A stretch of 43,132 bases of DNA, from positions 1 through 43,132 of the IMG/VR virus record IMGVR_UViG_3300032240_000991; one strand, written 5' to 3'. The notes under the pieces were generated by a model. That model made no database searches. It was not told the DNA's origin and saw nothing but the letters and a program-made list of their open reading frames with translations. The position numbers and the translations under genes are program-made. Of this stretch, positions 17,051 through 43,132 are shown one piece after another. Within the stretch, counting starts at the first letter, position 1; each line of letters starts with the position of its first letter. Source of the stretch: a virus.

Positions 17051-18088
17051 TTACGCGATGGCATACACACCATTCGCATTGAGTTGAGTTGTGGTTTCCA
17101 CGCCTGTCCAGGTCATGTTGTGCAGAAACACCGCGTAGTTATACGGGCGCTCCGGAGTCAACACCTTGTCATCCTCGTCCTCCATCGGGCGAACTTTCAC
17201 GCGACGGGAATCGAGAATATAGCAACGCTTGCCTTCGCCGAGGTCGTCCAGCATCGGGTCCCACGTGAATGTGCCTAAGCCCATCAACGAGATTTCCGCC
17301 ATGCCAAACTTAGTCTGGCCTTTGTTCTGGAAGCCGGTCTGTGTGAGCACGCCTTTGGAATAGACTTCCAATTCAAGCGCGTTCAAGAAGTCCGAGCCGC
17401 ACACTGCGAAGTCCGGCTTGCCACCATACTTCTTCAACTGGCGCAATTCCGTTTGCAGGAACCGGCACAACTTCTGGTCGACCGCCGAGGACACCAGATT
17501 CAGATTCGTGCGATGCTGCCACCAGCTGTAAGTCGCACGGTTAATACCGCCAGTGGTGCCAACCGCGGGCGTGTCGGTCAAGATGCTCTTCAAACCGGGC
17601 ATCGCCTTTGGGTCTTGCGAGCCGTCCAAGAAGAACAAGCGAGCTTTGCCGCGAGTATACGACTCGGCAAAATCCGTCATGCGGTTCTTGAGAATCTCCA
17701 CGAGACGGAACAGCTCGGTTTCGCCGTGCTGTGTCACTTTCTGGTTGTCGCTGATGGTCACGCCATCGGCCTTCAACTCCGACCAGCTGATAATCAAGCC
17801 GTAGTTGTGTTCCTTCCACGGGAAGTTCGTGCGCTGAATGTTCATCGCCTGACCGAATTGCAACTGGTCATCAGACGAATAGCCTTGCAGCGTGCTCGTG
17901 TCACTCATGTAAGCGCCCTGCACGGGGTCACTAACATAGCCATTGCCACCGGGGAATGACTTCTTATTGGATTCGAACCACTTCAAAAGCGGTTTGTCTT
18001 CCATCGTTTGGGAAATGGTGTCGCCACGCGTATAAAGCGGGAGGAGACCATTTGCTAGGTCGGTTGCTGTAACATATCCAAGTGCCAT
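17051..18088 (-). CDS. Major capsid protein (345 aa)
   Basis: Size, position after portal and scaffold, and sequence style fit an HK97-fold major capsid protein. The N-terminal region (LLPLYTRGDTISQTMEDKPLL) is followed by an alpha/beta body with SWSELKADGVTISDNQKVTQ and a long helix with VEILKNRMTDFAESYTRG. The P-domain-like middle carries FAVCGSDFLNALELEVYSKG, and a C-terminal A-domain-like part ends YNYAVFLHNMTWTGVETTTQ. There is no N-terminal protease-cleaved delta domain, consistent with the separate scaffold gene upstream. Confidence 0.8.
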   Translation of the reverse strand: MALGYVTATDLANGLLPLYTRGDTISQTMEDKPLLKWFESNKKSFPGGNGYVSDPVQGAYMSDTSTLQGYSSDDQLQFGQAMNIQRTNFPWKEHNYGLIISWSELKADGVTISDNQKVTQHGETELFRLVEILKNRMTDFAESYTRGKARLFFLDGSQDPKAMPGLKSILTDTPAVGTTGGINRATYSWWQHRTNLNLVSSAVDQKLCRFLQTELRQLKKYGGKPDFAVCGSDFLNALELEVYSKGVLTQTGFQNKGQTKFGMAEISLMGLGTFTWDPMLDDLGEGKRCYILDSRRVKVRPMEDEDDKVLTPERPYNYAVFLHNMTWTGVETTTQLNANGVYAIA

Positions 18089-19161: not shown

Positions 19162-21210
19162 TCAATGAGGCATTGGCGGCCGTATGCCTGACGGCTGCTG
19201 ACCGACCAAACCCGGATGTTGCGGGGCTGGCCGCTTACCGGCTTGCGGTTGCTGTGGTGCCTGCGGCATTTGCTCTGGTGCAAAGTCCTCGGCCTCTAAA
19301 TTCGCGTCCAGCACTTTAACATACTGACGAATTAACGCCCAAGGGTTAGCTCCGGCCTGCAGCATTAACGGTCCAATCTGTTGCCAGTTAGAAACGTCAA
19401 CCGCTTTATTCGGACGGCCGCTAGACGCCGCCACGACATCAAGGAAAATCTCATTCATGAAGTCCTCGCGGTTCTGCTCAGGCCACACGGCGCCTTGACC
19501 AGCAATCCGTTTGACCGTGGCTAATGCAAACTCCCGTAGCATAATCTCGCCGCCCGCACGGGCCAGCTCCGACAGCAAGTCATCAAGGTCATCAACATTG
19601 CTGTTAACGCCGCTGATACGAGCCTGCTCTTGGATAACAGCGGGTGTCGCTGCCACGTGCCGTTGAGGCTGCATTGACTGCGCGGTGTTCGTGCCAATAA
19701 CCAGCGAGGTATCCTCCAGCAACGGCTGAGTCTGATACAACGCTTGGTCAATCGGCGCGGCATGGAACGGGAAGATAGCATCCTGCAGTCTTCCACCCGG
19801 CGGCAGCCCTTTAACCCGCACAAGCTGATTCGACTCATGGTCGTTAATCGCGTCCATGTCCGGCTCGGTCAACCAACCTTCAACGGTCAGATACCACGGC
19901 CGGTTACTCTTGCGGTGTTTGCGCAACTCCTCACGCGTGCGATTCCATTCTTTTTGCGGATGACGAATCAGGTCAACGTCACTCGGCGGGTAGATATGCA
20001 CCTTGCCACCCGGCTCAACTTCAACGTCGTTAAACGTCAACGAGAATATCGGCCAGAAGCGGTTGATGGACGGCTCTACCGGTGCGGGGGCTTGCACCCA
20101 CTTACTCCAGCCATCCGCAATGAACAACGAGCTCTTCGTCGTAATATCAAAAATCTCCCACAGGCAAATCAACGGCTTCTCTTGTGGGTCGTCCTTGTCG
20201 TTGGGGTTAGCGGGCGAGGACTTCATCTTCTCGATGCCGTCTTCGTTATACACCGCCAGCTTACCGCCAGCTTTAATGTCCGTCTGGAAGTAAGCGTTCG
20301 CTTCGTCCAACGGGATAATGAACTGCTGAGCCACCCACCGTGCGCCAATAAACCCTTTTAAGCTCTTGCACTTGGGGTCGACGATAATGGAAGTCGCGGA
20401 CGGGAAATCAAACTCAAGCCGCTCTTCGATGTTAGTCGTATCGCCATTCGCCACGCTCGACTTCACACTCGCCATCAACTGCTCAAGCTGTTGGACGCGC
20501 GGGTCATCTTCGGTAATCTTGTCATCATCAATACTGTCCATTATCTGCTTGGCACGCTTGACCCGCATCGACAAGGTATCGTCGGTGCCGCTAGCCGTCA
20601 ACGCATGCTGCATCTCACGGGAGTAGTTCAGCCGGACGAACCCGACGCCGGTTGTCACCGTGCGCCGCACAAGCTGCTTCATCTGATACTTGAAATCAGG
20701 TGTCTGCGTATCACACTGATAATGATACAGCACTTCAAGCGTGCGACCAACCCGCTCGACAACCGCTTTCCATGCTTTGCCGTGCGTAATATCCGCAATC
20801 AACGCCTGAGCCGCAATCACCTTCGGGTCGTTCATGACCGCAGGGTTCTGCTGTGCCGCCTGACCAGCCTGCATGACTACCGCGTGTGCTTGCTGCATGG
20901 ATTCCACGCTGCCGTCCCACAACTGGTAATCGAGCCGCTGACGCCGCTTGAACACCGCCTTCGGGTCTTTAGCATACAGCGTCGCGACCTTCTGATTCAC
21001 CTCGCGGTTAACAAAGTTCGCAATATACTGCGTGCTGTCCAGCCCCGTCTGCGCGTCCCACTGAATGCCCGCTGCGAAGTTCATGGACTCCGTCATGCGC
21101 TTGAAGTCGGGTTCGAAATACTTCTTAGCGTCCTTCACGCGCTTCGTCCACAGCTTCACGCTATTCTCTTCGAGCAGCACGTCCTCCGCGTTGGTTTGTT
21201 CATCGGCCAT
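19162..21210 (-). CDS. Portal protein (682 aa)
   Basis: It begins with an acidic tip and then the portal-like stretch WTKRVKDAKKYFEPDFKRM..MNFAAGIQWDA and ANFVNREVNQKVATLYAKDP. The long central helix region carries RSSNRPWYLTVEGWLTEPD-like portal stem sequence, and the end is Gln/Pro-rich. Length matches P22-type portals (about 650-725). The portal forms the dodecameric DNA channel and binds terminase. Three bases separate it from the large terminase gene. Confidence 0.8.
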   Translation of the reverse strand: MADEQTNAEDVLLEENSVKLWTKRVKDAKKYFEPDFKRMTESMNFAAGIQWDAQTGLDSTQYIANFVNREVNQKVATLYAKDPKAVFKRRQRLDYQLWDGSVESMQQAHAVVMQAGQAAQQNPAVMNDPKVIAAQALIADITHGKAWKAVVERVGRTLEVLYHYQCDTQTPDFKYQMKQLVRRTVTTGVGFVRLNYSREMQHALTASGTDDTLSMRVKRAKQIMDSIDDDKITEDDPRVQQLEQLMASVKSSVANGDTTNIEERLEFDFPSATSIIVDPKCKSLKGFIGARWVAQQFIIPLDEANAYFQTDIKAGGKLAVYNEDGIEKMKSSPANPNDKDDPQEKPLICLWEIFDITTKSSLFIADGWSKWVQAPAPVEPSINRFWPIFSLTFNDVEVEPGGKVHIYPPSDVDLIRHPQKEWNRTREELRKHRKSNRPWYLTVEGWLTEPDMDAINDHESNQLVRVKGLPPGGRLQDAIFPFHAAPIDQALYQTQPLLEDTSLVIGTNTAQSMQPQRHVAATPAVIQEQARISGVNSNVDDLDDLLSELARAGGEIMLREFALATVKRIAGQGAVWPEQNREDFMNEIFLDVVAASSGRPNKAVDVSNWQQIGPLMLQAGANPWALIRQYVKVLDANLEAEDFAPEQMPQAPQQPQAGKRPAPQHPGLVGQQPSGIRPPMPH

Positions 21211-21213
21211 AAG

Positions 21214-22791
21214 TTAATTATCCTGCATCTGACGGATTAAAAGTTTTTGTTTTGCCCTGTGGCTATCTCGCAACCAGCCGTGCGTCGGTGTCCACGGCTT
21301 GTTCGGCTCGAACTGCGGGCGAGGCTTAGCCGGTGTTGCGCCAAACATCTTATGCACGCCCATGCCTAGCCACGCCAACGCATCTACAAAATCATCGTGC
21401 TTGGCATTCGGGAAGGTCAACAGCTCCTTCTTGGCTCGTTGCAGCCACTCCGCGTTAGCGGGGAACCGCACCATACCCATAGCCATCATGCCTTGCACCG
21501 TCTGCGCCCGCTGCATCTTGTCCTTCACCGGCTTGACCGGCACGATGTTGATGAATGTCCGTTCGTCCATGAGGCGGTCTTGAATCAACGGCAGTAACGA
21601 CTTCGTGATATGCCCGTCCTCCGCCCACCAGTAAATGAACTGCCGGCGTTTAGCTAGCGTCAGCATCGCCTCGATACACTCCTTACTGCCAATGCGCTTC
21701 CACACGACATCCGGCAGAATCCACAACTGCCCACGGCCGAAAGCCGCTGGTATGATGGCCGTGTTGTCCGCCGTCTGCCGCTCACTAACCGCATGGTCGC
21801 TCGCACAGTAAAACGAAAGCTCGTCGGCTGGTGGTAGTTCGTCAGGCCGGTATGTCAGGAAATGCTCCGCATCGAAGAACGCGCCTTTTAACGGCGCCGG
21901 TTCTTGCTGCTCAATGCCCGACGCGTAAACGTTCCCCATACGCTCGTTGACCTGCTGGCGAGTAAAATACTCAGGCCAGAGGTAATCACCAACCGCGCGT
22001 TGCAAAGGGTCTTGCTCGGCTTGTTCTTCCGTCTCGATAAGCAACCGCAAGCGGATAACCCGCCACTTCTCAGGCTCACGCTGCAACAGCCGCCCAACCA
22101 AGTCATCCTCGTTCCGATGATTCGCAATAATCACGCGAGCCGCAAACGGCTGCAAGCGAACCACAAAATCATTCACATACCAATCCCAAACCTTATCGTT
22201 GAACAGCTTCGACATGCTGTCCTCTTGTGACCCGCAGAAGTCATCAATCAGGCCAAGGTGCATACGGCGTCCGGCGATGCCTGCCCCGACGCCCGCTGCT
22301 TTGTAATACCCGCCATTCGTCGTAGCCCACTGCTCTGACGCCCGCGAGTCTTTCTTGAGTGCGTAACCCAACCAGCGTTCATTGCCTTCCACGATATTGC
22401 GAGCGGCGCGACCGAAGTCGGTGGCTAACCCCGCCTCGTGCGAGCAAGCCAGAATACCTAGCTCGCTTAACGGTATCCGGTGAAGCTGAGCCAAGAACCA
22501 CGGCGGGAACAGCTTACTGATATACGTTGACTTCGCCGAGCCGGGTGGCATCAGCACCATCAAACGCAAGCCGCTAACCTCTGTCTCGCGCGCTTCGGGC
22601 GTTAAGTTATTCAGCGTGGCTACCAGCTTATCCACCAACGCTTGCAACTCCGCAATCAACAGCCGGTGATGCTTCGCTGGCTTGAACCCAGCCTGCAAGC
22701 ACCAGTCCAAGAATGATTCACGCGCTTTTAACCGAGCAAGATACTCGGCCTTCGCGGTGCTAATTGGCGGTTGTGTTTGTTCTAAGCTCAA
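21214..22791 (-). CDS. Terminase large subunit (525 aa)
   Basis: ATPase: Walker A MPPGSAKST at residues 81-89, Walker B LGLIDDF near 175-181, and a coupling/motor segment VIIANHRNEDDLVGRLL. Nuclease: RNase H-like acidic residues in CASDHAVS near 335, an aspartate in WWAEDGHITKS near 395, and the final KHDDFVDALAWLG near 470. It packages DNA into the prohead using ATP and cuts concatemers. It overlaps the small subunit gene by 32 bp. Length is usual for the family. Confidence 0.9.
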   Translation of the reverse strand: MSLEQTQPPISTAKAEYLARLKARESFLDWCLQAGFKPAKHHRLLIAELQALVDKLVATLNNLTPEARETEVSGLRLMVLMPPGSAKSTYISKLFPPWFLAQLHRIPLSELGILACSHEAGLATDFGRAARNIVEGNERWLGYALKKDSRASEQWATTNGGYYKAAGVGAGIAGRRMHLGLIDDFCGSQEDSMSKLFNDKVWDWYVNDFVVRLQPFAARVIIANHRNEDDLVGRLLQREPEKWRVIRLRLLIETEEQAEQDPLQRAVGDYLWPEYFTRQQVNERMGNVYASGIEQQEPAPLKGAFFDAEHFLTYRPDELPPADELSFYCASDHAVSERQTADNTAIIPAAFGRGQLWILPDVVWKRIGSKECIEAMLTLAKRRQFIYWWAEDGHITKSLLPLIQDRLMDERTFINIVPVKPVKDKMQRAQTVQGMMAMGMVRFPANAEWLQRAKKELLTFPNAKHDDFVDALAWLGMGVHKMFGATPAKPRPQFEPNKPWTPTHGWLRDSHRAKQKLLIRQMQDN

Positions 22792-23737: not shown

Positions 23738-23935
23738 TGTCCCGTGGACAGTGTCCTGAAATACGCTGGCATGGGGAATGCTCTATTATATACTAGCAAA
23801 GCGAGCCGGATTGCCCAGTAATTGGACAGCTCGATAACGGGACAGTTGTGTCCAGTTATTAGACAGAGCTGGCAGCGAGCTGGCAGCGTCCTGTTTCTGG
23901 ACATGTCCATTGGACACTTGTCTAGGAATGGGACA
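23738..23935. promoter_or_regulatory. Cluster of GGACA/TGTCC half-sites (putative activator sites)
   Basis: At least ten copies of GGACA or its complement in 200 bases, several as dyads: TGTCC-CGT-GGACA-G-TGTCC (23738-23756), GGACA-GTTG-TGTCC (23840-23853), GGACATGTCC (23899-23908), GGACA-CT-TGTCT (23912-23923) and a single GGACA at 23931. Those at 23824-23935 lie about 60-170 bases upstream of the start point expected from the 23966 promoter, the usual distance for sigma-54 enhancer-binding proteins. Confidence 0.6.
23767..23782 (+). promoter_or_regulatory. Sigma-54-like promoter element 1
   Basis: TGGCATGGGGAATGCT has GG at 23768 and GC at 23780 with exactly 10 bases between, the invariant -24/-12 geometry of RpoN promoters. 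It is followed by the A/T-rich CTATTATATA. Confidence 0.55.
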
Positions 23936-23965
23936 AAAGAGGCTAGGCTACAAGCTCAAATGGCT

Positions 23966-23981
23966 TGGCACGGGCAATGCT
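23966..23981 (+). promoter_or_regulatory. Sigma-54-like promoter element 2 (best match)
   Basis: TTGGCACG-GGCA-ATGCTATAAG agrees with the RpoN consensus TGGCACG-N4-TTGCW at all but one base; GG (23967) and GC (23979) are 10 bases apart. Directly downstream are the long inverted repeat and the first rightward gene, so it probably drives the early block with a leader of about 230 nt. Confidence 0.65.
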
Positions 23982-24040
23982 ATAAGAGAATTGCCTGCGA
24001 TTGAGCGGGCCGCGGTCGGTCTTTGACATTTTAATATCGC

Positions 24041-24180
24041 CTTTAGTGAATAGCTAAAAGCGGATTAGCATAGCGGCAGAACTTGCCTAGGCGCAAAGCC
24101 TACTTTGCCAAATGACAATTCGTCATCTTGCCTAAACTTGGCACGCTATAAGCTAATCCGTTTCTAGCTACTCACTAAAG
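24041..24180 (+). ncRNA. Long inverted repeat / structured leader element
   Basis: Left arm 24041-24075 and right arm 24144-24180 pair over about 35 positions with two A-C mismatches, one G-U pair and a 2-nt bulge. The 68 nt between hold smaller hairpins: GCAAAG-CCTA-CTTTGC (24093-24108), ATGAC-AATTC-GTCAT (24112-24126) and the palindrome GCCTAGGC (24085-24092). In RNA it would be a branched stem in the 5' leader of the first early gene. A replication origin, an RNase III site or a small RNA are all possible. A weaker GG-N10-GC element (24139-24154) overlaps the right arm. Confidence 0.55.
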
Positions 24181-24224
24181 TGGTGAAGTAGCATAAAACG
24201 AAACAATCAAACTAAAGAAACATT

Positions 24225-24557
24225 ATGCCTACTATTACGAATACTTCCGTCCTGAACCAAGCCAAGCGCGTTTGCAAAGTGCTGAAAGCGCGTGGCGAAA
24301 ATATGGCGGCAGAGCACACAGCGACAATCCTCGTTCGTTCCATCTTGGAAGAGCTTGGCGAAGTCGCGCTGCTTAACGGCACTGATGCCATTAGCATCGA
24401 GACGCGCAAAAGCTTGGTCACGTTAGCAAAGCAATTTTGCACGGCATCCAAGAATTGGCAGTCCGTATATGCGGCGAACACTAAAGGCGATGACGGGGAA
24501 ATGCTAATGCCGACGGCGAAGGGCAACGAGCAACGCATTGATGCGGAGTTCGTGTGA
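24225..24557 (+). CDS. First early protein, unknown, EFV-tailed (110 aa)
   Basis: Helical, mostly polar protein (AKRVCKVLKARGENMAAE; ATILVRSILEELGEVALL). It ends GNEQRIDAEFV, the C-terminal tail shared with several other early proteins. It is the first gene after the control region and is preceded by the purine-rich AAAGAAACATT. No family recognised. A host-takeover or regulatory role is plausible for a first-expressed small protein, but that is inference. Confidence 0.7.
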   Translation: MPTITNTSVLNQAKRVCKVLKARGENMAAEHTATILVRSILEELGEVALLNGTDAISIETRKSLVTLAKQFCTASKNWQSVYAANTKGDDGEMLMPTAKGNEQRIDAEFV

Positions 24558-24629
24558 CGAGCACAGCGTGCGGGGTTACTAAGCACGCTCTTCGCTTGGC
24601 GGGTTACGGCATGGTGCCGTGACTCGTCA
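24555..24629 (+). ncRNA. Three-way-junction RNA element between early genes
   Basis: Outer helix TGACGAG (24555-24561) with CTCGTCA (24623-24629). Inside are hairpin AGCGTGC/GCACGCT (24565-24589, 11-nt loop) and hairpin ACGGCA-TGG-TGCCGT (24606-24620). All 20 pairs are Watson-Crick. It starts at the stop codon of the first gene and ends a few bases before the ribosome site of the SprT-like gene. Could be a processing site, a translational switch or an mRNA stabiliser. Confidence 0.5.
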
Positions 24630-24647
24630 ACCGAGGAGTTATGTATT

Positions 24648-25064
24648 ATGATTATTACGGACGACATTAAGCAACGCGTGGCGGACGAGCGTGCGCGGTG
24701 CTACGCAATAGCGGACAAACATTTTGGGCGCGTGTTTCCACGATGCCGTGTGCATTTTGACGTGGACAGCGCAAGCGTGGCGGGGTTGGCGTGTTACCGC
24801 GAAAACCTCGTGCGGTTGAATAAGAGGTTCATGGCGTATGACCTTGACGAGGCGATTACGAACACGCTGCCCCACGAAATAGCGCATTTGTTGACGTGGC
24901 AGGTGTGGCGTTACGACCCGCACAACCCGCTTCGTGCGAATGGGCGCACAGAGCACCACGGCTGGCAGTGGAAGGCCATGATGGTGGTGCTGGGTCAGGT
25001 GCCGGACGTATACCATTCTATGCCACGGCAGACACGCGGGCGTGATATAAGTGAGTTTGTGTGA
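24648..25064 (+). CDS. SprT-like zinc metalloprotease, EFV-tailed (138 aa)
   Basis: Zinc-protease motif HEIAH at residues 76-80 (NTLPHEIAHLL) and a likely third ligand in TEHHGWQWKAMM (about 103-104), the order seen in SprT/Spartan-family domains, which cleave proteins including DNA-protein crosslinks. Upstream, RENLVRLNKRFMAYD fits the strand-helix before the motif. It has a strong ribosome site (GAGGAG). It ends RGRDISEFV, the shared tail. Early expression suggests action on host proteins or crosslinks on phage DNA. Confidence 0.75.
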   Translation: MIITDDIKQRVADERARCYAIADKHFGRVFPRCRVHFDVDSASVAGLACYRENLVRLNKRFMAYDLDEAITNTLPHEIAHLLTWQVWRYDPHNPLRANGRTEHHGWQWKAMMVVLGQVPDVYHSMPRQTRGRDISEFV

Positions 25065-25091
25065 TACGCGGCCCGCGCCTAAAGAATGCGG

Positions 25092-25294
25092 CGCACCCAC
25101 CGACCCACCTACTCTGCCTCCGCCAAGGGGCTAGTGCCTGTCGCTTCCGCAAAAGCGCGGAGGGGCTAGCCCCGTAAAAAAAAAAAAAAAAAAAAAAAAA
25201 TACGTGGTAAGCAATACGCCTTCGTGAGCTGCTTGTCGCTTTGAAGCGACAGCGGTGCCAGCCACCCGCCGCCTAGAGTAGGTGGGTTGGTGCG
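25092..25294. repeat. Nested hairpins with 25-nt poly-A tract inside an inverted repeat
   Basis: Arms ACCCACCTACTCT (25103-25115) and AGAGTAGGTGGGT (25275-25287), extended by CGCACC/GGTGCG, enclose CGCTT..AAGCG, the palindrome GGGGCTAGCCCC (25162-25173), a run of 25 A (25176-25200) and the hairpin TGTCGCTT-TG-AAGCGACA (25234-25251). No gene is credible here. The combination of A-tract and cruciform-forming sequence is compatible with a replication origin or a transcription boundary. The exact A count may be affected by sequencing error. Confidence 0.6.
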
Positions 25295-25334
25295 TCGGTC
25301 GCGCCTCGCTTGGCAGCTCGCGTAGAAAGTATTT

Positions 25335-25493
25335 ATGAGCAAGAAAAACGTCATCGTGATAGCAGTTAAGTGGCCGTGTGTGCGTGTGGTATTCACCTCC
25401 GCTAGCGGCGTCCGGTCAGCACGGCTACTGCCGCTGCCCGTCTACCATTTCATCGCCATGCGGCTAGCGTGTGCGGTGGCAACTAACAACTAG
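25335..25493 (+). CDS. Candidate small protein (52 aa)
   Basis: ATG preceded by AGAAAGTATTT. The product MSKKNVIVIAVKWPCVRVVF... is basic and hydrophobic, with a possible short membrane-associating N-terminus. It fills the otherwise empty stretch before the 25515 dyad. No family; coding is plausible but unproven. Confidence 0.35.
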   Translation: MSKKNVIVIAVKWPCVRVVFTSASGVRSARLLPLPVYHFIAMRLACAVATNN

Positions 25494-25514
25494 CCACGCG
25501 GATAACCAATGGTG

Positions 25515-25539
25515 GTTAGGTTCAATAGTTGAACCTGAC
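25515..25539 (+). repeat. 25-bp dyad, copy 4 (intergenic)
   Basis: Perfect arms GGTTCAA/TTGAACC around TAG, flanks GTTA and TGAC. It ends 21 bases before the next ATG, so a bound protein would overlap that gene's translation start region or promoter. Confidence 0.8.
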
Positions 25540-25560
25540 TGCCGCAAAGAAAAGGACAGT

Positions 25561-25803
25561 ATGACGACAACACCAGACAACCTCGCGTATCAGCGTCGTG
25601 AGGGCAACCTCGCACGCTTCGCCGCGCTGATGGGTGTGCGGGCAAAGCACCGTGCATTGTGGGCTAAGATGCACGTGACGCACACGGAAATACCCGTCGA
25701 CGGCAAGTGGCTTGATGCGTTCTGCGATAGCCGTTACAACCATACCGTGTTATACGACGCTACCGGCAAGCTGCTTTACAACAACATGGGGGTGGCCAAG
25801 TGA
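25561..25803 (+). CDS. Unknown early protein (80 aa)
   Basis: Ribosome site AAGGA before the ATG. Basic first half (QRREGNLARFAALMGVRAKHR) and a C-terminal strand pair (NHTVLYDATGKLLYNN). No known motif. First gene of a four-gene run in which every stop and start overlap (GTGA/ATGA), implying translational coupling. Confidence 0.65.
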   Translation: MTTTPDNLAYQRREGNLARFAALMGVRAKHRALWAKMHVTHTEIPVDGKWLDAFCDSRYNHTVLYDATGKLLYNNMGVAK

Positions 25804-25985
25804 ACGCCCAACCAAACATCCGCTGGGTTCGCGTGCAAGGCATTTTGCCCACGCATAATAAGTTCACAGTGTATGCCGTGATATTCGGTGACGAGTATAA
25901 CGAATACAAGCCGTGGCCGGTGCATGAGGAGGACTTAAACACAGTCACATTAGCGTGGATACGCGACGGACGGAGGCCTCAATGA
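25800..25985 (+). CDS. Unknown early protein (61 aa)
   Basis: GTG start overlapping the preceding TGA. The product (MNAQPNIRWVRVQGILPTHN...) is a small beta-rich domain with a DEYNEYKPWPVHEEDLNTV segment. No family recognised. It overlaps the next gene at ATGA. Confidence 0.6.
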   Translation: MNAQPNIRWVRVQGILPTHNKFTVYAVIFGDEYNEYKPWPVHEEDLNTVTLAWIRDGRRPQ

Positions 25986-26164
25986 ACGCCGACGACCACA
26001 GCTTCGAGTCATGGATGCGTGCAGTGGACGCTATCCTCACACACCGCATCGGGTTATCCCACGACGACCTGCCTGACCAATGCTGGCGTAATTGGTTCGA
26101 GAATGACCTCACACCCGCACAAGCCGCACAAGAGTGCCTTGACAACGAGGGCATTGACCTATGA
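25982..26164 (+). CDS. Small conserved-looking helical protein (60 aa)
   Basis: The pattern FESWMRAVDAILTHRIGLS, then DDLPDQCWRNWFEN and DLTPAQAAQECLDNE, looks like a compact three-helix domain widespread in phages and plasmids (W..aVd....GLs.dDLpD....w...G.tP.eAA). Its function is unknown to me. Coupled by ATGA overlaps on both sides, so the start is well determined. Confidence 0.65.
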   Translation: MNADDHSFESWMRAVDAILTHRIGLSHDDLPDQCWRNWFENDLTPAQAAQECLDNEGIDL

Positions 26165-26331
26165 ACCCCGCTGCCACACTCGCCGAGTTAATCCGGCAGT
26201 TTCCGGACTACACCGTGCGCCTTGCAGAATCCAACGTGCACGCAAAGCCACCACACAAGACCTCCGAGCTGATGGAGGTTGTGTGCAATCACACCAACCG
26301 AGAAATCTGGGCTTGGTGCTACCATAGTTAG
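26161..26331 (+). CDS. Unknown small early protein (56 aa)
   Basis: ATG overlaps the preceding stop (ATGA). The product begins MNPAATLAELIRQFPDYTVR and ends with a Trp-rich tail, EIWAWCYHS, with Cys/His residues (CNHTN, WCYH) that might bind metal. It is the last gene of the coupled run before a regulatory spacer. Confidence 0.55.
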   Translation: MNPAATLAELIRQFPDYTVRLAESNVHAKPPHKTSELMEVVCNHTNREIWAWCYHS

Positions 26332-26488
26332 CCACGTATGCCAGCCAGCCTGTCCAACTTTGAGACTGTCCAATTCCTAGGCAATTCTGCCTCATTTATG
26401 GACACTTTATCGTTAAAGACAGGCTGGCATGGCAAATGCTATAAGAATGCCAGCGGTGGCGATGATGCTACCACATACCATTATAAAA
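26332..26488 (+). promoter_or_regulatory. Regulatory spacer with half-sites and promoter
   Basis: 157-base gap with TGTCC at 26351 and 26367, GGACA at 26400 and AGACA near 26418. The stretch CCAATTCCTAGG (26370-26381) is the complement of a CCTAGGAATTGG motif that closely matches CTAGGAATGGG in the 23.9-kb cluster. These lie just upstream of the third sigma-54-like element, so the same regulator probably acts at both places. Confidence 0.55.
26425..26440 (+). promoter_or_regulatory. Sigma-54-like promoter element 3
   Basis: TGGCATGGCAAATGCT with GG (26426) and GC (26438) 10 bases apart, followed by ATAAGAATGCC. It is nearly the same as element 2 over about 20 bases, including the TATAAGA after the -12 box. 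It would start transcription about 40 bases before the 26489 gene. Confidence 0.6.
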
Positions 26489-26704
26489 ATGAAATACCGC
26501 ATTAAAAACACCGTCGACACGGCACGGCGGCTCTACCGTGACTCCGTGCCAGCACCCGTCATCGACCAGATTCTCGGTCGTGAGTTCGAGCATACCGGCA
26601 CACCTATCAAGGTGCACGCCACGTTCCTCGGCCAAGACACAAGCTGGGAGATTGCACCCGATTGTATCGAGCAAATACCCGAAACCCTTAACCCCGTATC
26701 CTAA
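26489..26704 (+). CDS. Unknown early protein (71 aa)
   Basis: The start was set at the ATG after ATTATAAAA; the frame is open further upstream, but that would run into the promoter. Product MKYRIKNTVDTARRLYRDSV...: helix-rich N-terminus, then a strand region (IKVHATFLGQDTSWEIAP). It contains PAPVIDQILGREFEHTGTP. Function unknown. First gene behind sigma-54-like element 3. Confidence 0.6.
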   Translation: MKYRIKNTVDTARRLYRDSVPAPVIDQILGREFEHTGTPIKVHATFLGQDTSWEIAPDCIEQIPETLNPVS

Positions 26705-28238: not shown

Positions 28239-28598
28239 ATGAACATCAAGACAAAGCTAGTCCCTATCACGTGGCTCCACGGCATCCCTCACGGCCATTC
28301 ATGTGGTTACGTCGGCGTGCCTGCTGGCCACCCGTGGCACGGGTTGGATTACTACGGCACCACGCTTGTCGGCGATATTACTATCCACGGTGGCGTCACA
28401 TGGGCTGATGACTATGTACCACACCAGCCGGACTGCGACTCCGCGCTTGGCTATTGGTGGGTTGGGTTTGACACAGCACATGCCCGCGACAACGCCACTC
28501 GCTGCAACGAGTCATACTGCCGTGCGGAGCTTGACTCGCTAACCAAGCAAGCTGTCAACGCCGCGCTCGGCTGCGTCTGCACCATCGAACCGCTATGA
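28239..28598 (+). CDS. Conserved-type phage protein with HGG and GFDxAH motifs (119 aa)
   Basis: The motif order CGYVGVPAGHPWHG, ITIHGGVTWADD and YWWVGFDTAHARDN is one I know from many phage hypothetical proteins; its biochemical function is not established to my knowledge. His and Asp conservation suggests a metal-binding or hydrolytic site. Start chosen for the leader TTAACAACAAAGCAAA, which matches the leader of the 27423 gene. Overlaps the next gene by 4 bp. Confidence 0.65.
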   Translation: MNIKTKLVPITWLHGIPHGHSCGYVGVPAGHPWHGLDYYGTTLVGDITIHGGVTWADDYVPHQPDCDSALGYWWVGFDTAHARDNATRCNESYCRAELDSLTKQAVNAALGCVCTIEPL

Positions 28599-28864
28599 TT
28601 ACCACCGACCAAGTCGTCACCGCCATCTATCGCGTAGAAGGCGGCAGCGCAACCCACTACCCTTATGGTATTAAATCCATCCGCACTAGCGACCCGCGGC
28701 GCGTATGCGAGAACACCGTGCGCCATGCGTTGCACGACTACACGCCACACCGCATCGACCGTGGCTTTATTGTCTTTCTGGCCAACCGCTACTGCCCTCC
28801 TAGCGTGGACGCTACGGGCAATCGCCATTGGCAAGCTAACATGGTAAACATCCTGCACCTCTGA
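28595..28864 (+). CDS. Small phage protein, EGG-PYGI family (89 aa)
   Basis: Pattern AIYRVEGGSATHYPYGIKSI, RRVCENTVRHAL, then GFIVFLANRYCPPS and HWQANMVNIL. This order (EGG, PYGI, NTV, FL..RYCP, W..N) recurs in small phage proteins that have been labelled structural or lysozyme-like. The early Glu in VEGG could be catalytic in a lysozyme-like fold, which would matter because no other endolysin is visible, but it is coded among early genes. Confidence 0.55.
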   Translation: MITTDQVVTAIYRVEGGSATHYPYGIKSIRTSDPRRVCENTVRHALHDYTPHRIDRGFIVFLANRYCPPSVDATGNRHWQANMVNILHL

Positions 28865-34647: not shown

Positions 34648-34968
34648 ATGTTGAATCTTAACCAAATAATGCTCGAGTTAAACGAGATGAAACGCCGCAT
34701 GGATAATATCGTGCGGCTGCTTTACGAGTATGAGCAGGGCGCGCCGTTGCCTCCCGCACCGGCACCAGTCAAAACTGCCCATGATGAAGCCACGGCATAC
34801 ACGGATGAAACGCCGATGCCGTTCGGCAAATGGAAAGGCACACCACTCGGCAAGCTGCGCTCGGACTACCGCGCGTGGCTAGCCTCACAAGACAATCTGT
34901 CCGACAAGCGTTTGCACGCTTACCTGCATAACAACGAAACCGAAGAAACCTGCATTGACCGCACATGA
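34648..34968 (+). CDS. DUF3820-like protein with N-terminal coiled coil (106 aa)
   Basis: The N-terminal 30 residues form a leucine-spaced helix (LNQIMLELNEMKRRMDNIVR). After a Pro/Ala linker, the C-terminal half MPFGKWKGTPLGKLRSDYRA then WLASQDNLSDKRLHAYL matches the small DUF3820 pattern (MpFGKykG.pl..ip..Yl.WL). That domain is common in phages, sometimes fused to exonucleases; its biochemical role is not settled. ATGA overlap with the ParB-methyltransferase gene. Confidence 0.65.
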   Translation: MLNLNQIMLELNEMKRRMDNIVRLLYEYEQGAPLPPAPAPVKTAHDEATAYTDETPMPFGKWKGTPLGKLRSDYRAWLASQDNLSDKRLHAYLHNNETEETCIDRT

Positions 34969-36347
34969 AAATTAAATTATCCGACATTGTAATTGGCGAA
35001 CGCCAACGCGTAGACCTCGGCGATATTGAGGAGTTAGCTGAGTCCATAGCCCGACTTGGTCAGATTCATAACATCGGTGTGAGAGCCGAGGACATGCAGT
35101 TGATATGGGGCATGCGGCGTTACACCGCCATGAAGATGCTTGGCTGGACGGAATGCGAAGCCACGCTCCGCGAGGGGCTGTCGCTGGAGCAGGAACAAGA
35201 ACTCGAGCTTGAGGAAGATGTCAAACGCAAGGACCGCACATGGCAAGAGAAGTGCCTTGCGGTGGCGAAGCTGTTCCGTATCAAAGCCCGCAACGCCCGT
35301 GCTGTCGGCGAAACATGGACGCTGCAAATGATGGCGTCGTTCACTGGCCAGTCGAAAGCAACGATGTCTAACTACATCTACACGCTGGCCGATGCGCTTG
35401 CCGTGACGCCCCGCGACGAGGCGCTCTGGACGGCTGGCTCGTATGTCGAGGCGTTAGGCGTGCTACGTGACCGCCGCTTTGCCGAGGCTAACGCCGAGCT
35501 AGAACGTCGTCGCGCCGTGAACAACGCCTTCGCCGCGACACCGCTTGTCATGCCGACAGAGCTGAAGGTCGGTGGCATTCGCTTGCCCTCACTCGCCGAG
35601 GCTTGCGGCACGGTAGTTGGCCAGCCAAGTCCGATTCAACAGTTGAACCCAACTCGCCCTGCGCTGCCCACCAAAGTAGGCATGACGCATGTGACGCTCC
35701 GTGACCGCGCTCAGTTCTTTAATAAGAAATACGAGCACTTATGGAAGCAGCAGCTATCGTTCCGTGTGAACCCGAAAGACCCCACCGAGCAGTTCATCGA
35801 GGGCTGGTGGTTTGTCGGTGGCGGCAACATCAGCGACTTGTATGGCTCGTATCAAACCGAGTATCTTGAACGCATTGCCGTGCTGTTCCCTGACGCGGTG
35901 AAAGTCGTGCATCTGTTTGTCGGCAGCCTGCCACCGTCACCGAACTACGTGCGCGTCGGCTTGCCGCAAGGCGATACAAAACCCGACATTGAATGCGACG
36001 CACATCATCTGTCGTCCAAGCTGCCGTTCAAACCCGACCTTATCTATGCCGACCCGCCATACAGCATCGAGGACAGCGAGCACTATGCCAACAGCATGGT
36101 AAACCGCGAACGCGTCATCCAAGAGTGCGCGCTTGTGCTGGAACCCGGTGGCTTCCTCGTCTGGATGGACCAAGCACTGCCGTTGTTCTCCAACAATGAC
36201 CTCCGGCTTGTCGGCGGTATATCCTACATCCGGTCTACCGGCAATCGTTTCCGCGTCGTAACCATATTCCAAAAACCATGTCTACCTACCAAATCATCAC
36301 CGGCACCGGCACCTGCGAACTCAGCGAATCTGGCGGAGTTTGTGTAA
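34965..36347 (+). CDS. ParB-DNA methyltransferase fusion, EFV-tailed (460 aa)
   Basis: Residues 1-60 are a ParB/Srx-type domain (LGDIEELAESIARLGQIHNI, then WGMRRYTAMKMLGWTE). Residues 80-145 include a KorB-like helix-turn-helix (MMASFTGQSKATMSNYIYTL). The C-terminal part has the adenine methyltransferase catalytic motif LIYADPPYSIED near 358-369 and a Rossmann-like end (GGFLVWMDQALPLF). A canonical FxGxG SAM motif is not evident. Between them is a linker holding dyad copy 7. The end SSPAPAPANSANLAEFV is the shared tail on a Pro/Ala spacer. It may mark or silence DNA, protect against restriction, or bind the 25-bp dyads. Confidence 0.75.
   Translation: MKIKLSDIVIGERQRVDLGDIEELAESIARLGQIHNIGVRAEDMQLIWGMRRYTAMKMLGWTECEATLREGLSLEQEQELELEEDVKRKDRTWQEKCLAVAKLFRIKARNARAVGETWTLQMMASFTGQSKATMSNYIYTLADALAVTPRDEALWTAGSYVEALGVLRDRRFAEANAELERRRAVNNAFAATPLVMPTELKVGGIRLPSLAEACGTVVGQPSPIQQLNPTRPALPTKVGMTHVTLRDRAQFFNKKYEHLWKQQLSFRVNPKDPTEQFIEGWWFVGGGNISDLYGSYQTEYLERIAVLFPDAVKVVHLFVGSLPPSPNYVRVGLPQGDTKPDIECDAHHLSSKLPFKPDLIYADPPYSIEDSEHYANSMVNRERVIQECALVLEPGGFLVWMDQALPLFSNNDLRLVGGISYIRSTGNRFRVVTIFQKPCLPTKSSPAPAPANSANLAEFV
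35629..35653 (-). repeat. 25-bp dyad, copy 7 (in the linker of the ParB-methyltransferase)
   Basis: Arms GATTCAA/TTGAACC around CAG, flanks GTCC and CAAC. It encodes PIQQLNPTR between the ParB and methyltransferase parts, and the QQLNPT reading recurs at copy 1 in the unrelated giant gene. Confidence 0.8.
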
Positions 36348-36589
36348 GCGCAACAGGCTGGCTCGACTGGGCAGTCGGGCTGCCCTACAATCACGTTCGG
36401 CATTACGCCGAGCTTAAAGGCTGGGTCATCGTGCCGCAGCTTGCTAACGAACCTACGCAAACCGACTTCGAGTTTCACAACTGCGATTACGTTTTGACGT
36501 GGAAGAACAACAAGGTGATACGTATCACCAAGGACGGAGAGCCTATCACATGGCGTGAGCTTCCCGACCAACTGAAAGGATTGCTATAA
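36278..36589 (+). CDS. Unknown early protein (103 aa)
   Basis: Starts 70 bp inside the end of the methyltransferase gene in another frame and ends at the polymerase start. MSTYQIITGTGTCELSESGG... is beta-rich, with a C-terminal EPITWRELPDQLKGLL. Two cysteines lie in the first third. No family recognised. The long overlap suggests genome compaction and translational coupling. Confidence 0.55.
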   Translation: MSTYQIITGTGTCELSESGGVCVSATGWLDWAVGLPYNHVRHYAELKGWVIVPQLANEPTQTDFEFHNCDYVLTWKNNKVIRITKDGEPITWRELPDQLKGLL

Positions 36590-39213
36590 TGTCAGTGCCG
36601 AATTACATACCGTCATGGACAGGCACCGGCCGCGTCGCGCTAATCAGCGACGCGGCTTCTGCCGATGACGAAAAAAACATGCAGCCGTTGTCCGGTCGTG
36701 ATGGCCGGTTCATGGCGGCATTGCTTGGCCGTGCGGGCATCGTGCGGGAGAACTGTTTCCTCGGTTGCGTGGCACCGTATAAGCCGGTGTCCGGCAAAGC
36801 CGAGGAGTTCTCGTGGAGCGGGGATGAAATACAGGAAGGCCTGTATCAGCTAGGCGTTGACCTAGCGGCATTCAAACCTAATGTCGTTGTGCTATTCGGC
36901 GATGTGTCGCTGCGAGCCGCCAAAGACCCGCTGGCCACAAAGCCCGCTAAGTATTACTCGTGTGCCAAGTGGCGCGGCTCGTTGTTCTACGGGGCTGAGG
37001 GCGGACCTTTCGCGGGGCTGAAGTGCCTCGTCGCATACCACCCGACCTACTGCCTACGCGACTACGAAGCTGTGCCGCTGCTCCAGTTCGACCTGCGGAA
37101 AGCCGCACGCGAAGCGGCATCCCCGCTACTCAACCTCCCGACCCGCGTCATTGACACGACGCTGTCAGAGGACGCCATCATTGCACGGCTCGCGGCTATC
37201 CGCCGTGACCGCATTCCCGTCGCCATCGACATTGAGGGTGGCATCGACACGATGTCGTGTATCTCATTCGCGGAGTCACCGACCTCCGCATTCATCGTGC
37301 CGATATACACGAAAGCGGGTCACGTTGTCATCACACCCGCAATCTGGCGTGCACTCGCCTTAACTCTTGAAGACCCGTATGTCCCGAAGATACTCCAAAA
37401 CAGCCTCTACGACCGATTCGTCCTGCACTACTCCTACGGCATTCGAGTGCGCAATGTGGCTCACGATACTATGCTTAAGCATTGGGAGTTATATTCTGAA
37501 CTCGAAAAGAACCTCGGAGTCCAATGCAGCATCTACACCGACCAGCCTTACTACAAAGGCGACCGCAAGTCCGATGACGACCGGACATTCTACGAATACT
37601 GTTGCCTCGACTCATGCGTCACGCTAGAGATTAGCAACAAGCTGGAGCAGCTTATCACGGGTTGCAGCCGCCAGCAATACGACTTAAACATGGCTCTGCT
37701 GAATCCGTTCTTATACATGGAACTACGAGGCATGCGGTATGATGTGCGTGGAGCAGCGGAACGCCGTAGCAACCTGCGTGACCAACTGCACATCGCGCAG
37801 GCACGGCTTAACGCGGCTTGCGGCTTTGGCTTTCCGTGCACGTCACTCGCAGCTATTAAACAGCGCGCGCATGACGTGTTCTACACGAAAGACGGCTCTC
37901 GACCGCGCAAGGAATATATACCGGCCGTCGCCCGCTATCACGAGCTGATGAAGGAGCCACGTCCCACGCTCGCCACGCTAGGCGAGCTTGAGGATTTGTG
38001 TGAGGTATCCCTCAACGTCGGCTCGCAGAAACAATTCATGGCGTATCTCTATGACACCATCAAGCTGCCCGTGCAAATGTCCAACATCCGTGGCAAGGTG
38101 CCGCATCCGACTGCGGACTATGAGGCACTGCTCAAGCTCTCGAAGTGGTGCATTCAGAATCAACACAGCCACGGCTTCCTCGTATGCCAAGCGGCGTTGG
38201 AACTACGGGCATTACAAACCCGCCAACAGATGCTGGCTATCTCAGCCGACCGTGATGGTCGTATCCGCTGCGGGTATAATCTTGTCGGCGCCAACACCGG
38301 CCGCATCACCTGCTACGAGTCGCCGACTGGCTCTGGCTATAACCTGCAAACCATCCCGAACTACACGGTCGAGAAAGAAGCACCGGGTGGGCTGCTAGGC
38401 GACCGTGACTTATTCCTCGCGGATGACGACCATTACATATTCCAGTGCGACCTGGCGGGCGCGGATGGCTGGACGGTGGCCGCTTACTGCGCTATGCTGG
38501 GTGACAACACCATGATGGAGCATTACTTGTTTGGTATCAAGCCCTACGCGGCGATTGCCCTAAAGCTGGCCGGACGGGACGTTGACTTCAAAGACAAGGT
38601 CGCTATCAAGGAGGCCGTGAAGAAGTATAAGATGACCGACATTGAGAAGCTCGTCGCGAAACGCACGCAGCATGGCGGCGCATACCTCGAAGGTGGGCTG
38701 ACGATTAGCCGCAACGTCCTGAAAGACTCCGAGGGCAAGACATACATCTCGCCCGCTGAATGCGACAAACTCAAGAACTGGTATCTCCGTGAGATGTATT
38801 GGGGCATACCGAAGTGGCACGACTGGATTGCCCGTCGCATGAAAGAGAAGCCCGTCCTCACCGCGGCAAGCGGCCAAGTCCGTCAGTTCTTTGGCCGCCC
38901 TGACGATGTGCTGACCAAGGCAGTCGCGTTCGAACCACAAGCTAACACCACCTATGCCACTAACCTCGCAGCGCACAAGCTCTGGTGCGACCCGGATAAC
39001 CGCAAGCCTAACGGCGGTTTTCACATTGAGCCGCTTCATCAAGTCCACGACGCCTTGCTCGGTCAATTCCGACGCGAGCGGAGCGAATGGGCAGCCCGTA
39101 AGATTCAGAGCTACTTTAATAACACGCTCGTCATCGCAGGACAAAACATCACAATCCCTTTCGAGGGTGCCTATGGCATCTCGTGGGGCAACACCAAAGC
39201 AGGAACCATATGA
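36589..39213 (+). CDS. Family A DNA polymerase with UDG-like N-terminal domain (874 aa)
   Basis: Residues 1-190 resemble the uracil-DNA glycosylase-like domain known at the N-terminus of some phage PolA enzymes, such as SPO1 (KNMQPLSGRDGRFMAALLGR; NVVVLFGDVSLRAA). A 3'-5' exonuclease follows with VAIDIEGG near 210. Polymerase motifs: motif A QCDLAGADGWTVAAYC near 618, O-helix AKRTQHGGAYLEGG near 690, and motif C QVHDALL near 817. The usual Phe762 (E. coli numbering) is His and the last residue of HDE is Ala. It replicates the phage genome, and the UDG-like part may sense or bind uracil or be structural. Confidence 0.85.
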   Translation: MSVPNYIPSWTGTGRVALISDAASADDEKNMQPLSGRDGRFMAALLGRAGIVRENCFLGCVAPYKPVSGKAEEFSWSGDEIQEGLYQLGVDLAAFKPNVVVLFGDVSLRAAKDPLATKPAKYYSCAKWRGSLFYGAEGGPFAGLKCLVAYHPTYCLRDYEAVPLLQFDLRKAAREAASPLLNLPTRVIDTTLSEDAIIARLAAIRRDRIPVAIDIEGGIDTMSCISFAESPTSAFIVPIYTKAGHVVITPAIWRALALTLEDPYVPKILQNSLYDRFVLHYSYGIRVRNVAHDTMLKHWELYSELEKNLGVQCSIYTDQPYYKGDRKSDDDRTFYEYCCLDSCVTLEISNKLEQLITGCSRQQYDLNMALLNPFLYMELRGMRYDVRGAAERRSNLRDQLHIAQARLNAACGFGFPCTSLAAIKQRAHDVFYTKDGSRPRKEYIPAVARYHELMKEPRPTLATLGELEDLCEVSLNVGSQKQFMAYLYDTIKLPVQMSNIRGKVPHPTADYEALLKLSKWCIQNQHSHGFLVCQAALELRALQTRQQMLAISADRDGRIRCGYNLVGANTGRITCYESPTGSGYNLQTIPNYTVEKEAPGGLLGDRDLFLADDDHYIFQCDLAGADGWTVAAYCAMLGDNTMMEHYLFGIKPYAAIALKLAGRDVDFKDKVAIKEAVKKYKMTDIEKLVAKRTQHGGAYLEGGLTISRNVLKDSEGKTYISPAECDKLKNWYLREMYWGIPKWHDWIARRMKEKPVLTAASGQVRQFFGRPDDVLTKAVAFEPQANTTYATNLAAHKLWCDPDNRKPNGGFHIEPLHQVHDALLGQFRRERSEWAARKIQSYFNNTLVIAGQNITIPFEGAYGISWGNTKAGTI

Positions 39214-41927: not shown

Positions 41928-43132
41928 TCCCGTAACGCTCGCCTTCCTTGATAACATCCAAGCCCTTATCAATCGCTTCGGTGTTCACCTTAACCTGAAA
42001 CCCCTTCACGGCCTCGGCACGCTCCTTGCATTGTTTAACCGCTGCATCGAGCGTTGCCCCCGTGCCGATGACGCATCCGACATCCGGTAGGCCGATGGCC
42101 TGCGGCACAACATAATCCTTCTCGCCGCGTCGGACGTGGAATCGCAACTTAACCGCGTCATCAAGCTCCCTTGGATACTGCACATGCAACCAATCGTTGA
42201 TAGCCCATTCACTGTTTATCATGGCAAGGCAACCGAACTTGGCTTTTGCCTTCGGGGTAGTGCAAACACCCTCGGCCCCGTCCCAACACACCTGCGCCCA
42301 GTTATCAAACAAGCCCTGCAAGAGTTCATTGCTGGGTGTTCCGAGCCGACAGCAGGGGTCAATCATGAACGGCTCTTTCTTTTTGGTGTAACGTATTTCC
42401 GAACTAAAGAACCCACGGTATCCCGAGTCCTTAAATCCCGGTGCGAGTTTGCCATTCACAACTTTCACTGGTTCAGCGAGTTGCTGATACGGCTTAACGA
42501 CCCCGACCATGCCAGCGTCTTTAACCTCATAAGCCATCATTGCCAGTTCGGGGAATTTTCCATCGACGGTGAAACCATCATACCCAACTTCAACAGCATC
42601 TGGTATTTCGTCTTCGACGATGAATTCGTATGTCTCTTTCTTCGCACCGAGGACATGAGCAAGCTGGTCAAGCCGTGGCTCAACGATGGAAAAGTCTGAG
42701 CACTTGAAAGTCTCGAAGTCCCCACGCACGTAAGAGGTCTTAACATACACGGTTTTCTTCGTAGCCTTCAGGCACTTGCGGAGTGCCTCCAGTCCTTGCA
42801 CATGCTCGCAATGCTGCACGGGCAAGCCGAGCCGTTTCAACTCCTCCTTGAACTCCCAGCGGTGAAGCTCACGGTCCTCGCCTTCACCCGCACCCCACAC
42901 CCGCGCACCTTGCCGCCGAAGGAACACCTGCAAGCCGCTCTGATACAAGTCCAGAAACACCCACAGGTCAATCTCGTCGGCCAGCAACAACGGCTGCTCG
43001 CACCACTCCAGCTCGTCGAACCCGCGCCCCGGTGCCAAGTCATTCGACTTGGGAAACGCCGAGGCAAATGGCTTGTAATACAAGCACCGGCCAAAGTCCT
43101 TGGCCAGTGTCCGAGCAAAGCTCACGAACAGC
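41917..43132 (-). CDS. PurD-like ATP-grasp ligase, main part (wraps to 164)
   Basis: About 418 residues when joined to 1-164. The layout resembles ATP-grasp ligases of the PurD/carbamoyl-phosphate synthetase type, which use ATP to make acyl-phosphates and join them to amines. An ATP-binding strand-lysine KTVYVKTSY lies near residue 140. An acidic hinge segment, FIVEDEIPD, lies near 188. The metal-binding and arginine block near 250-278 reads SSEIRYTKKKEPFMID then CCRLGTP. In PurD the last motif is E-x-N-x-R; here it is D-P-C-C-R, so one metal-ligand position is changed. The substrate is unknown and de novo purine synthesis is not implied. It is last in the leftward block, 20 nt downstream of a tiny acidic peptide gene, and its 3' end overlaps the convergent zinc-finger gene by 11 bp. 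Confidence 0.7.
   Translation of the reverse strand, partial: LFVSFARTLAKDFGRCLYYKPFASAFPKSNDLAPGRGFDELEWCEQPLLLADEIDLWVFLDLYQSGLQVFLRRQGARVWGAGEGEDRELHRWEFKEELKRLGLPVQHCEHVQGLEALRKCLKATKKTVYVKTSYVRGDFETFKCSDFSIVEPRLDQLAHVLGAKKETYEFIVEDEIPDAVEVGYDGFTVDGKFPELAMMAYEVKDAGMVGVVKPYQQLAEPVKVVNGKLAPGFKDSGYRGFFSSEIRYTKKKEPFMIDPCCRLGTPSNELLQGLFDNWAQVCWDGAEGVCTTPKAKAKFGCLAMINSEWAINDWLHVQYPRELDDAVKLRFHVRRGEKDYVVPQAIGLPDVGCVIGTGATLDAAVKQCKERAEAVKGFQVKVNTEAIDKGLDVIKEGERYGIKF
43010..43132. repeat. Right copy of 123-bp terminal direct repeat
   Basis: Exact copy of bases 1-123. Unique genome length after removing one copy is 43,009 bp. Confidence 0.95.

Follow-up and report, generated by a model that had tools for sequence, protein, structure and literature searches.

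We analysed the viral record IMGVR_UViG_3300032240_000991, whose 43,132 nt are referred to here as the window, and identified three sigma-54-type elements, P1, P2 and P3, directed toward its rightward replication arm, together with a 17-bp dyad, TGTCC-N7-GGACA, repeated upstream of P2 and P3. The interpretation that we favor, to which we assign a probability of roughly 0.7, is that host sigma-54 RNA polymerase and a host bacterial enhancer-binding protein (bEBP, or EBP) would start the replication arm. Taken alone, the assignment of the promoters to the sigma-54 type is highly probable; the identity of the dyad-binding protein is less well supported than the promoter type. Most phages begin on sigma-70-type promoters, for which an activator is not needed. 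Transcription from sigma-54 promoters requires an ATP-driven activator, and a phage opening on them would therefore carry a built-in dependency on the state of its host.

In the proposed mechanism, host sigma-54 RNA polymerase would occupy P2, P3 and probably P1 to serve the rightward arm, and a host AAA+ enhancer-binding protein would bind the 17-bp dyads, whose centres lie ~45-175 bp 5′ of the predicted starts. The dyad-bound activator would then open the closed complex, and expression of the arm would follow whatever signal this activator senses. Early timing is read from gene order only, and a link to nitrogen or stress is a guess. If true, such an arrangement could explain infections stalling in some physiological states.

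Promoter elements and upstream dyads

An earlier note on this DNA had proposed three elements with a 10-base gap between GG and GC at 23767, 23966 and 26425, and had singled out the second as a near-consensus match. All three sites were confirmed; each differs from TGGCAYRNNNNTTGCW by a single base, having A instead of T at position 12. The strict pattern TGGCAYG-N4-WTGCW occurred three times in the window compared with 0.155 expected from 200 third-order Markov shuffles (maximum 2), and the tighter TGGCAYG-N4-ATGCT occurred three times compared with 0.03 (maximum 1). All three elements are intergenic, lie on the plus strand and are oriented toward the replication arm. The degeneracy of the sigma-54 consensus and the initial selection of the sites by eye could favor chance matches out of a 43-kb sequence; this explanation is extremely improbable, as three sites were found where 0.03-0.155 were expected, and syntenic conservation in three further phages already contradicts it.

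Alternatively, rather than being sigma-54 promoters, the elements could represent a motif peculiar to the phage or be recognised by a different sigma factor. At position 12, most copies carry A in place of the consensus T, several are trailed by TATAAG, a possible -10-like sequence, and a weak sigma-70-like pair (9/12) overlaps P1. Nevertheless, no sigma-70 -35/-10 hexamers 16-18 apart were present at P2 or P3, and the 10 bases that separate TTGGCA from TATAAG are far too short for sigma-70. Moreover, TTGCT variants occur within the same set of elements (13660 in the related phage G001 and 26236 in G018), and an unrelated phage with five such sites, G002, encodes a GAFTGA activator. Taken with these observations, a non-sigma-54 identity appears quite unlikely.

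Half-sites of the type GGACA/TGTCC numbered 10 within 23738-23940, whereas the overall density was 2.0 per kb; at most 9 fell within any 200 bp of the window, and 3 in the next best region elsewhere. To define their arrangement, spacings from 0 to 15 were scanned in the six regions that lie upstream of promoters in the window and G001, the half-site having been chosen first and the spacing afterwards. TGTCC-N7-GGACA was favored, with 14 instances at no more than two mismatches compared with 0.65 expected (maximum 4 in 100 shuffles). Other spacings were far less enriched, the next reaching 5, and the perfect class included two instances at spacing 3. A NorR-like GT-N7-AC reading of the spacing-3 sites was rejected, with two instances only and no conservation; PilR-type TGTC repeats were dropped, as we found no supporting literature and the fixed 17-bp dyad took their place. 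Expressed as TGT-N11-ACA, the dyad falls within the published TGT-N10-12-ACA class of enhancer-binding-protein sites, which includes 15 EBP groups of Clostridiales, FhlA and NifA (PMC6615313).

Half-sites, many as dyads, had previously been ascribed to all three promoters. Dyads were present at P2, preceded by four of the N7 type (one mismatch), and at P3, preceded by three (two mismatches); P1 is accompanied by half-sites. The stretch CTAGGAAT-K-GGACA, noted earlier as common to two clusters, proved to be the N7 dyad at 23919-23935, which recurs inverted at 26367-26383. The start of the proximal dyad is nearly constant relative to the first T of the promoter in the window, G001 and G018 (Table 1), and this dyad is perfect in G001 and G018. 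Collectively, these sequence features predict that host sigma-54 polymerase recognises P2 and P3 as genuine -24/-12 promoters, and probably P1 as well, for which the support is weaker.

Conservation in related phages

Terminase searches retrieved G001 (L003, 42,965 bp), G016 (L008, 24,966 bp) and short contigs, while G018 (L012, 44,863 bp) was retrieved by the promoter-plus-dyad pattern. Protein comparison established all three as true relatives over many genes, with terminase identities to the window of 53% (G001), 58% (G016) and 42% (G018). Strict sites exceeded chance in G001 (4 compared with 0.085 expected) and in G016 (2 compared with 0.01). Three of the G001 elements are intergenic or ahead of early genes; the fourth, at 26535, lies inside a long coding open reading frame (ORF) and may be a chance match. 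Strict elements occupy the P2 and P3 equivalents of G001 in matching orientation: the P2 counterpart lies 5′ of a 47%-identical homologue of ORF 24225, and the P3 counterpart is followed first by a LuxR-type helix-turn-helix (HTH) gene and next by a homologue of ORF 26489. In G018, a single element and a perfect dyad occupy the divergent region that corresponds to that of the window. Because this phage was found via the pattern itself, its site cannot count as a separate line of evidence for that pattern, in contrast to the location of the site in the shared divergent region, which is independent. G016 has two elements in this region. The sigma-54 reading of the earlier note is thus upheld by sites far above chance, by synteny in three relatives and by association with a dyad whose constant spacing belongs to a known class of enhancer.

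No strict site was detected in the control genomes, namely the more distant phages RHph_N65 and Mae-Yong1326-1, the human-gut phage MT121960 and YuA, and a 33% relative (L010) also had none. The same architecture was found in other viral contigs: L013, with three elements and two perfect dyads, L045, with two perfect dyads, and L047. Pattern matches in L005 and L006 seem to be coding, and those in L015, L020, L022, L026 and L048 combine a dyad and a site within long ORFs; all were treated as chance.

Two further observations concern the relatives. The early arm of G001 contains an inserted GIY-YIG-like gene (L003 5402-6067, minus strand) that has a sigma-54 element and a perfect dyad to itself, reminiscent of a mobile gene arriving with its promoter; Pfam returned only a weak zinc ribbon, and the GIY-YIG label is our reading of the sequence. 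In G016, another inverted repeat, AGTCTGTATT...AATATAGACT, occurs twice (L035 250-800) near the promoters that lack TGTCC dyads, and is perhaps the site of another regulator.

Source of the activator

The earlier claim that the phage has no obvious activator gene was borne out by profile search, which detected no Sigma54_activat domain (PF00158) in the window, G001, G016 or G018. Compared with each other, the window and G001 show circularly permuted gene orders, which indicates that each is nearly complete and makes the lack of an activator informative; G016 is a fragment. L013, L045 and L047 likewise encode no recognisable activator. Given that related phages lack a recognisable sigma-54 activator, a host activator is the best reading; we infer its origin, its binding and the use of sigma-54 alike.

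We scanned ~85,000 cellular species for a dyad plus sigma-54-like site, with the gap restricted to 8-38 bp, and obtained 14 scattered loci, ~7 of which would be expected by chance by our estimate. At least two appear real because an EBP gene adjoins each: in Bacillus sp. REN3 (L017), the dyad and promoter precede an acetoin-dehydrogenase-like operon with a 664-aa EBP gene upstream, and in L028 they precede a crotonase gene, with a 555-aa EBP gene oriented divergently. Such adjacency, at the level of sequence, makes the dyad compatible with an EBP operator, without naming the activator of the phage host. As host clues, a terminase scan of the 85,000 species for prophage relatives and a plasmid search both returned nothing. 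The phage proteins matched those of distant phages whose hosts are unrelated (Microcystis, Rhizobium), and neither of these phage genomes has a strict sigma-54 site.

Several observations weigh against activation by a host protein bound to the dyads. P1 has no N7-spaced dyad, the two elements of G016 have no dyads, and some dyads lie nearer the promoter than usual, centred at ~-45 to -65. Near-dyads of G001 also occur away from sigma-54 sites, and the cellular scan, within its 8-38 bp gap, revealed no clear host regulon with the dyad-plus-promoter architecture.

These points bear on another explanation, in which the promoters are sigma-54 promoters and the dyads are overlaid operators of a phage-encoded repressor or regulator, the true activator binding elsewhere or acting from solution. 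Consistent with it, perfect and near-dyads of G001 occur without a sigma-54 site (for example, at 42817, 20477 and 33197), one dyad lies just 10 bp off a promoter, G001 has the LuxR-type HTH gene, and, in the scan that we made, viral contigs showed the dyad-promoter architecture more often than genomes did. Conversely, no recognisable DNA-binding regulator was present among the early genes of the window that were scanned, the dyad geometry is that of a known EBP class and is found beside cellular EBP genes, and the dyad is common to unrelated phages. We regard phage operators as unlikely, and retain host activation through the dyads as the preferred interpretation.

A contrasting solution, and a comparable system, is provided by the unrelated phage G002 (L007, 49,888 bp), which was retrieved by the promoter pattern only and carries five strict intergenic sigma-54 elements compared with 0.05 expected, one of them directly 3′ of an activator gene (Table 1). 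We read Walker A (GPTGTGKE), FLDEVGEL, GAFTGA and FREDLYAR motifs from the sequence of its 292-aa product, which thus has the Walker A and B, GAFTGA and arginine finger of PF00158. The protein stops just past the AAA+ lid, with no recognisable HTH or other DNA-binding domain. Its nearest solved structures are NtrC-family (NtrC1-type) AAA+ domains, followed at greater distance by FleQ and PspF, and it is matched by PHROG 7998 (unknown function). A phage-type DNA ligase near the gene makes host-DNA contamination unlikely. Helicobacter FlgR and Chlamydia CtcC are bEBPs without a DNA-binding domain; the G002 protein resembles them in having an AAA+ core with GAFTGA and no HTH, and differs in being phage-encoded, 292 aa long and devoid of a receiver domain. 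In the literature, which we covered in part, we found no paper describing a phage-encoded bEBP. An 89-aa window protein of unknown function (28595-28864), ~40% identical to genes in Manatee Spring phage records, has a 52%-identical counterpart in G002 directly behind a G002 element, which suggests gene exchange between the two phages and perhaps overlapping hosts.

Tentatively, and at somewhat short of even odds, phages of several lineages may have made a sigma-54 early route in two ways: through dyads for a widespread host activator, which would gate infection by a host signal, or through a minimal activator of their own that lacks a DNA-binding domain and would fire the phage's sigma-54 promoters whatever the state of the host.

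Sigma-54 promoters in a phage are not new in kind. Pseudomonas phage YuA (AM749441) has promoters annotated as -24/-12, for which its record gives a measured activity of 2000 MU. However, the three YuA promoters lie in the structural (late) arm with a best consensus match of 9/12 and no annotated enhancer dyads, whereas the window has strict sites and dyads heading the replication arm. What is unusual is the position ahead of replication genes, the enhancer dyads and, in G002, the phage-encoded activator. Bacterial sigma-54 promoters with bEBP sites (PMC6615313) share with the window the GG/GC spacing, intergenic location, upstream inverted repeats and TGT-N11-ACA; the window differs in being a phage genome, in its TGTCC core, in several dyads unusually near the promoter and in the lack of a phage-encoded activator. 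The acetoin-type promoter of Bacillus sp. REN3 is similar in placing TGTCC-N7-GGACA ~31 bp upstream of TGGCATGGAACTTGCA beside the 664-aa EBP; unlike the window, it serves a cellular metabolic operon, and binding of the dyad by its EBP is suggested by adjacency.

Gene arms and other features of the window

The divergent region between the minus-strand head and packaging arm and the plus-strand replication arm holds P1 and P2, while P3 lies 2.4 kb inside the plus arm. The latter begins at 24225 and encodes a SprT-like protein, a PD-(D/E)XK nuclease, a Sak4-like annealing protein, a ParB-like/methyltransferase protein, a DNA polymerase and a ligase. The ORF caller placed the start of the gene behind P3 at 26429, inside the promoter; we list the feature from 26489.

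Table 1 Coordinates of promoters, dyads and neighboring features (window positions unless another contig is named).
Feature	Position	Strand	Remarks
P1, TGGCATGGGGAATGCT	23767..23782	+	sigma-54-type; predicted start ~23793; no gene evident between P1 and P2
P2, TGGCACGGGCAATGCT	23966..23981	+	sigma-54-type; at head of rightward arm
P3, TGGCATGGCAAATGCT	26425..26440	+	sigma-54-type; counterpart L003 4617 minus
Half-sites beside P1, TGTCCCGTGGACAGTGTCC	23738..23756	.	spacings 3 and 1, not N7 dyad
Dyad TGCCCAGTAATTGGACA	23812..23828	.	start -154 relative to first T of P2
Dyad TGTCCAGTTATTAGACA	23849..23865	.	-117 relative to P2
Dyad CGTCCTGTTTCTGGACA	23887..23903	.	-79 relative to P2
Dyad TGTCTAGGAATGGGACA	23919..23935	.	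-47 relative to P2; same place in G001 (-46) and G018 (-48)
Dyad TGTCCAACTTTGAGACT	26351..26367	.	-74 relative to P3
Dyad TGTCCAATTCCTAGGCA	26367..26383	.	-58 relative to P3; inverse of 23919 dyad
Dyad TGCCTCATTTATGGACA	26388..26404	.	-37 relative to P3
Leader RNA 3′ of P2	24041..24180	+	32-nt inverted repeat (88%) enclosing 76 nt with more hairpins
First gene 3′ of P2	24225..24557	+	110 aa, function unknown; 47% identity with gene behind corresponding L003 promoter
Gene behind P3 (MKYRIKNT...)	26489..26704	+	function unknown; homologue behind third L003 promoter
Capsid	17051-18088	minus	head/packaging arm
Portal-like protein	19162-21210	minus	head/packaging arm
Terminase	21214-22791	minus	head/packaging arm
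G002 activator, 292 aa	L037 14525-15403, contig IMGVR_UViG_3300025574_000002	minus	PF00158 E 8e-55

For the leader region 3′ of P2, folding gave z = -6.6 (23993-24224), and an Rfam search with the leader RNA matched no family; the leader also contains a fourth, weaker sigma-54-like match at 24139. A run of ~24 A residues lies at 25177-25200 between two early genes. Further along the arm, ORF 34965-36347 fuses a DNA methyltransferase-like region to a ParB-like N-terminal domain, and ORF 36589-39213 encodes a single DNA polymerase comprising a uracil-DNA-glycosylase-like N-terminal domain, a 3′-5′ exonuclease and a family A polymerase domain.

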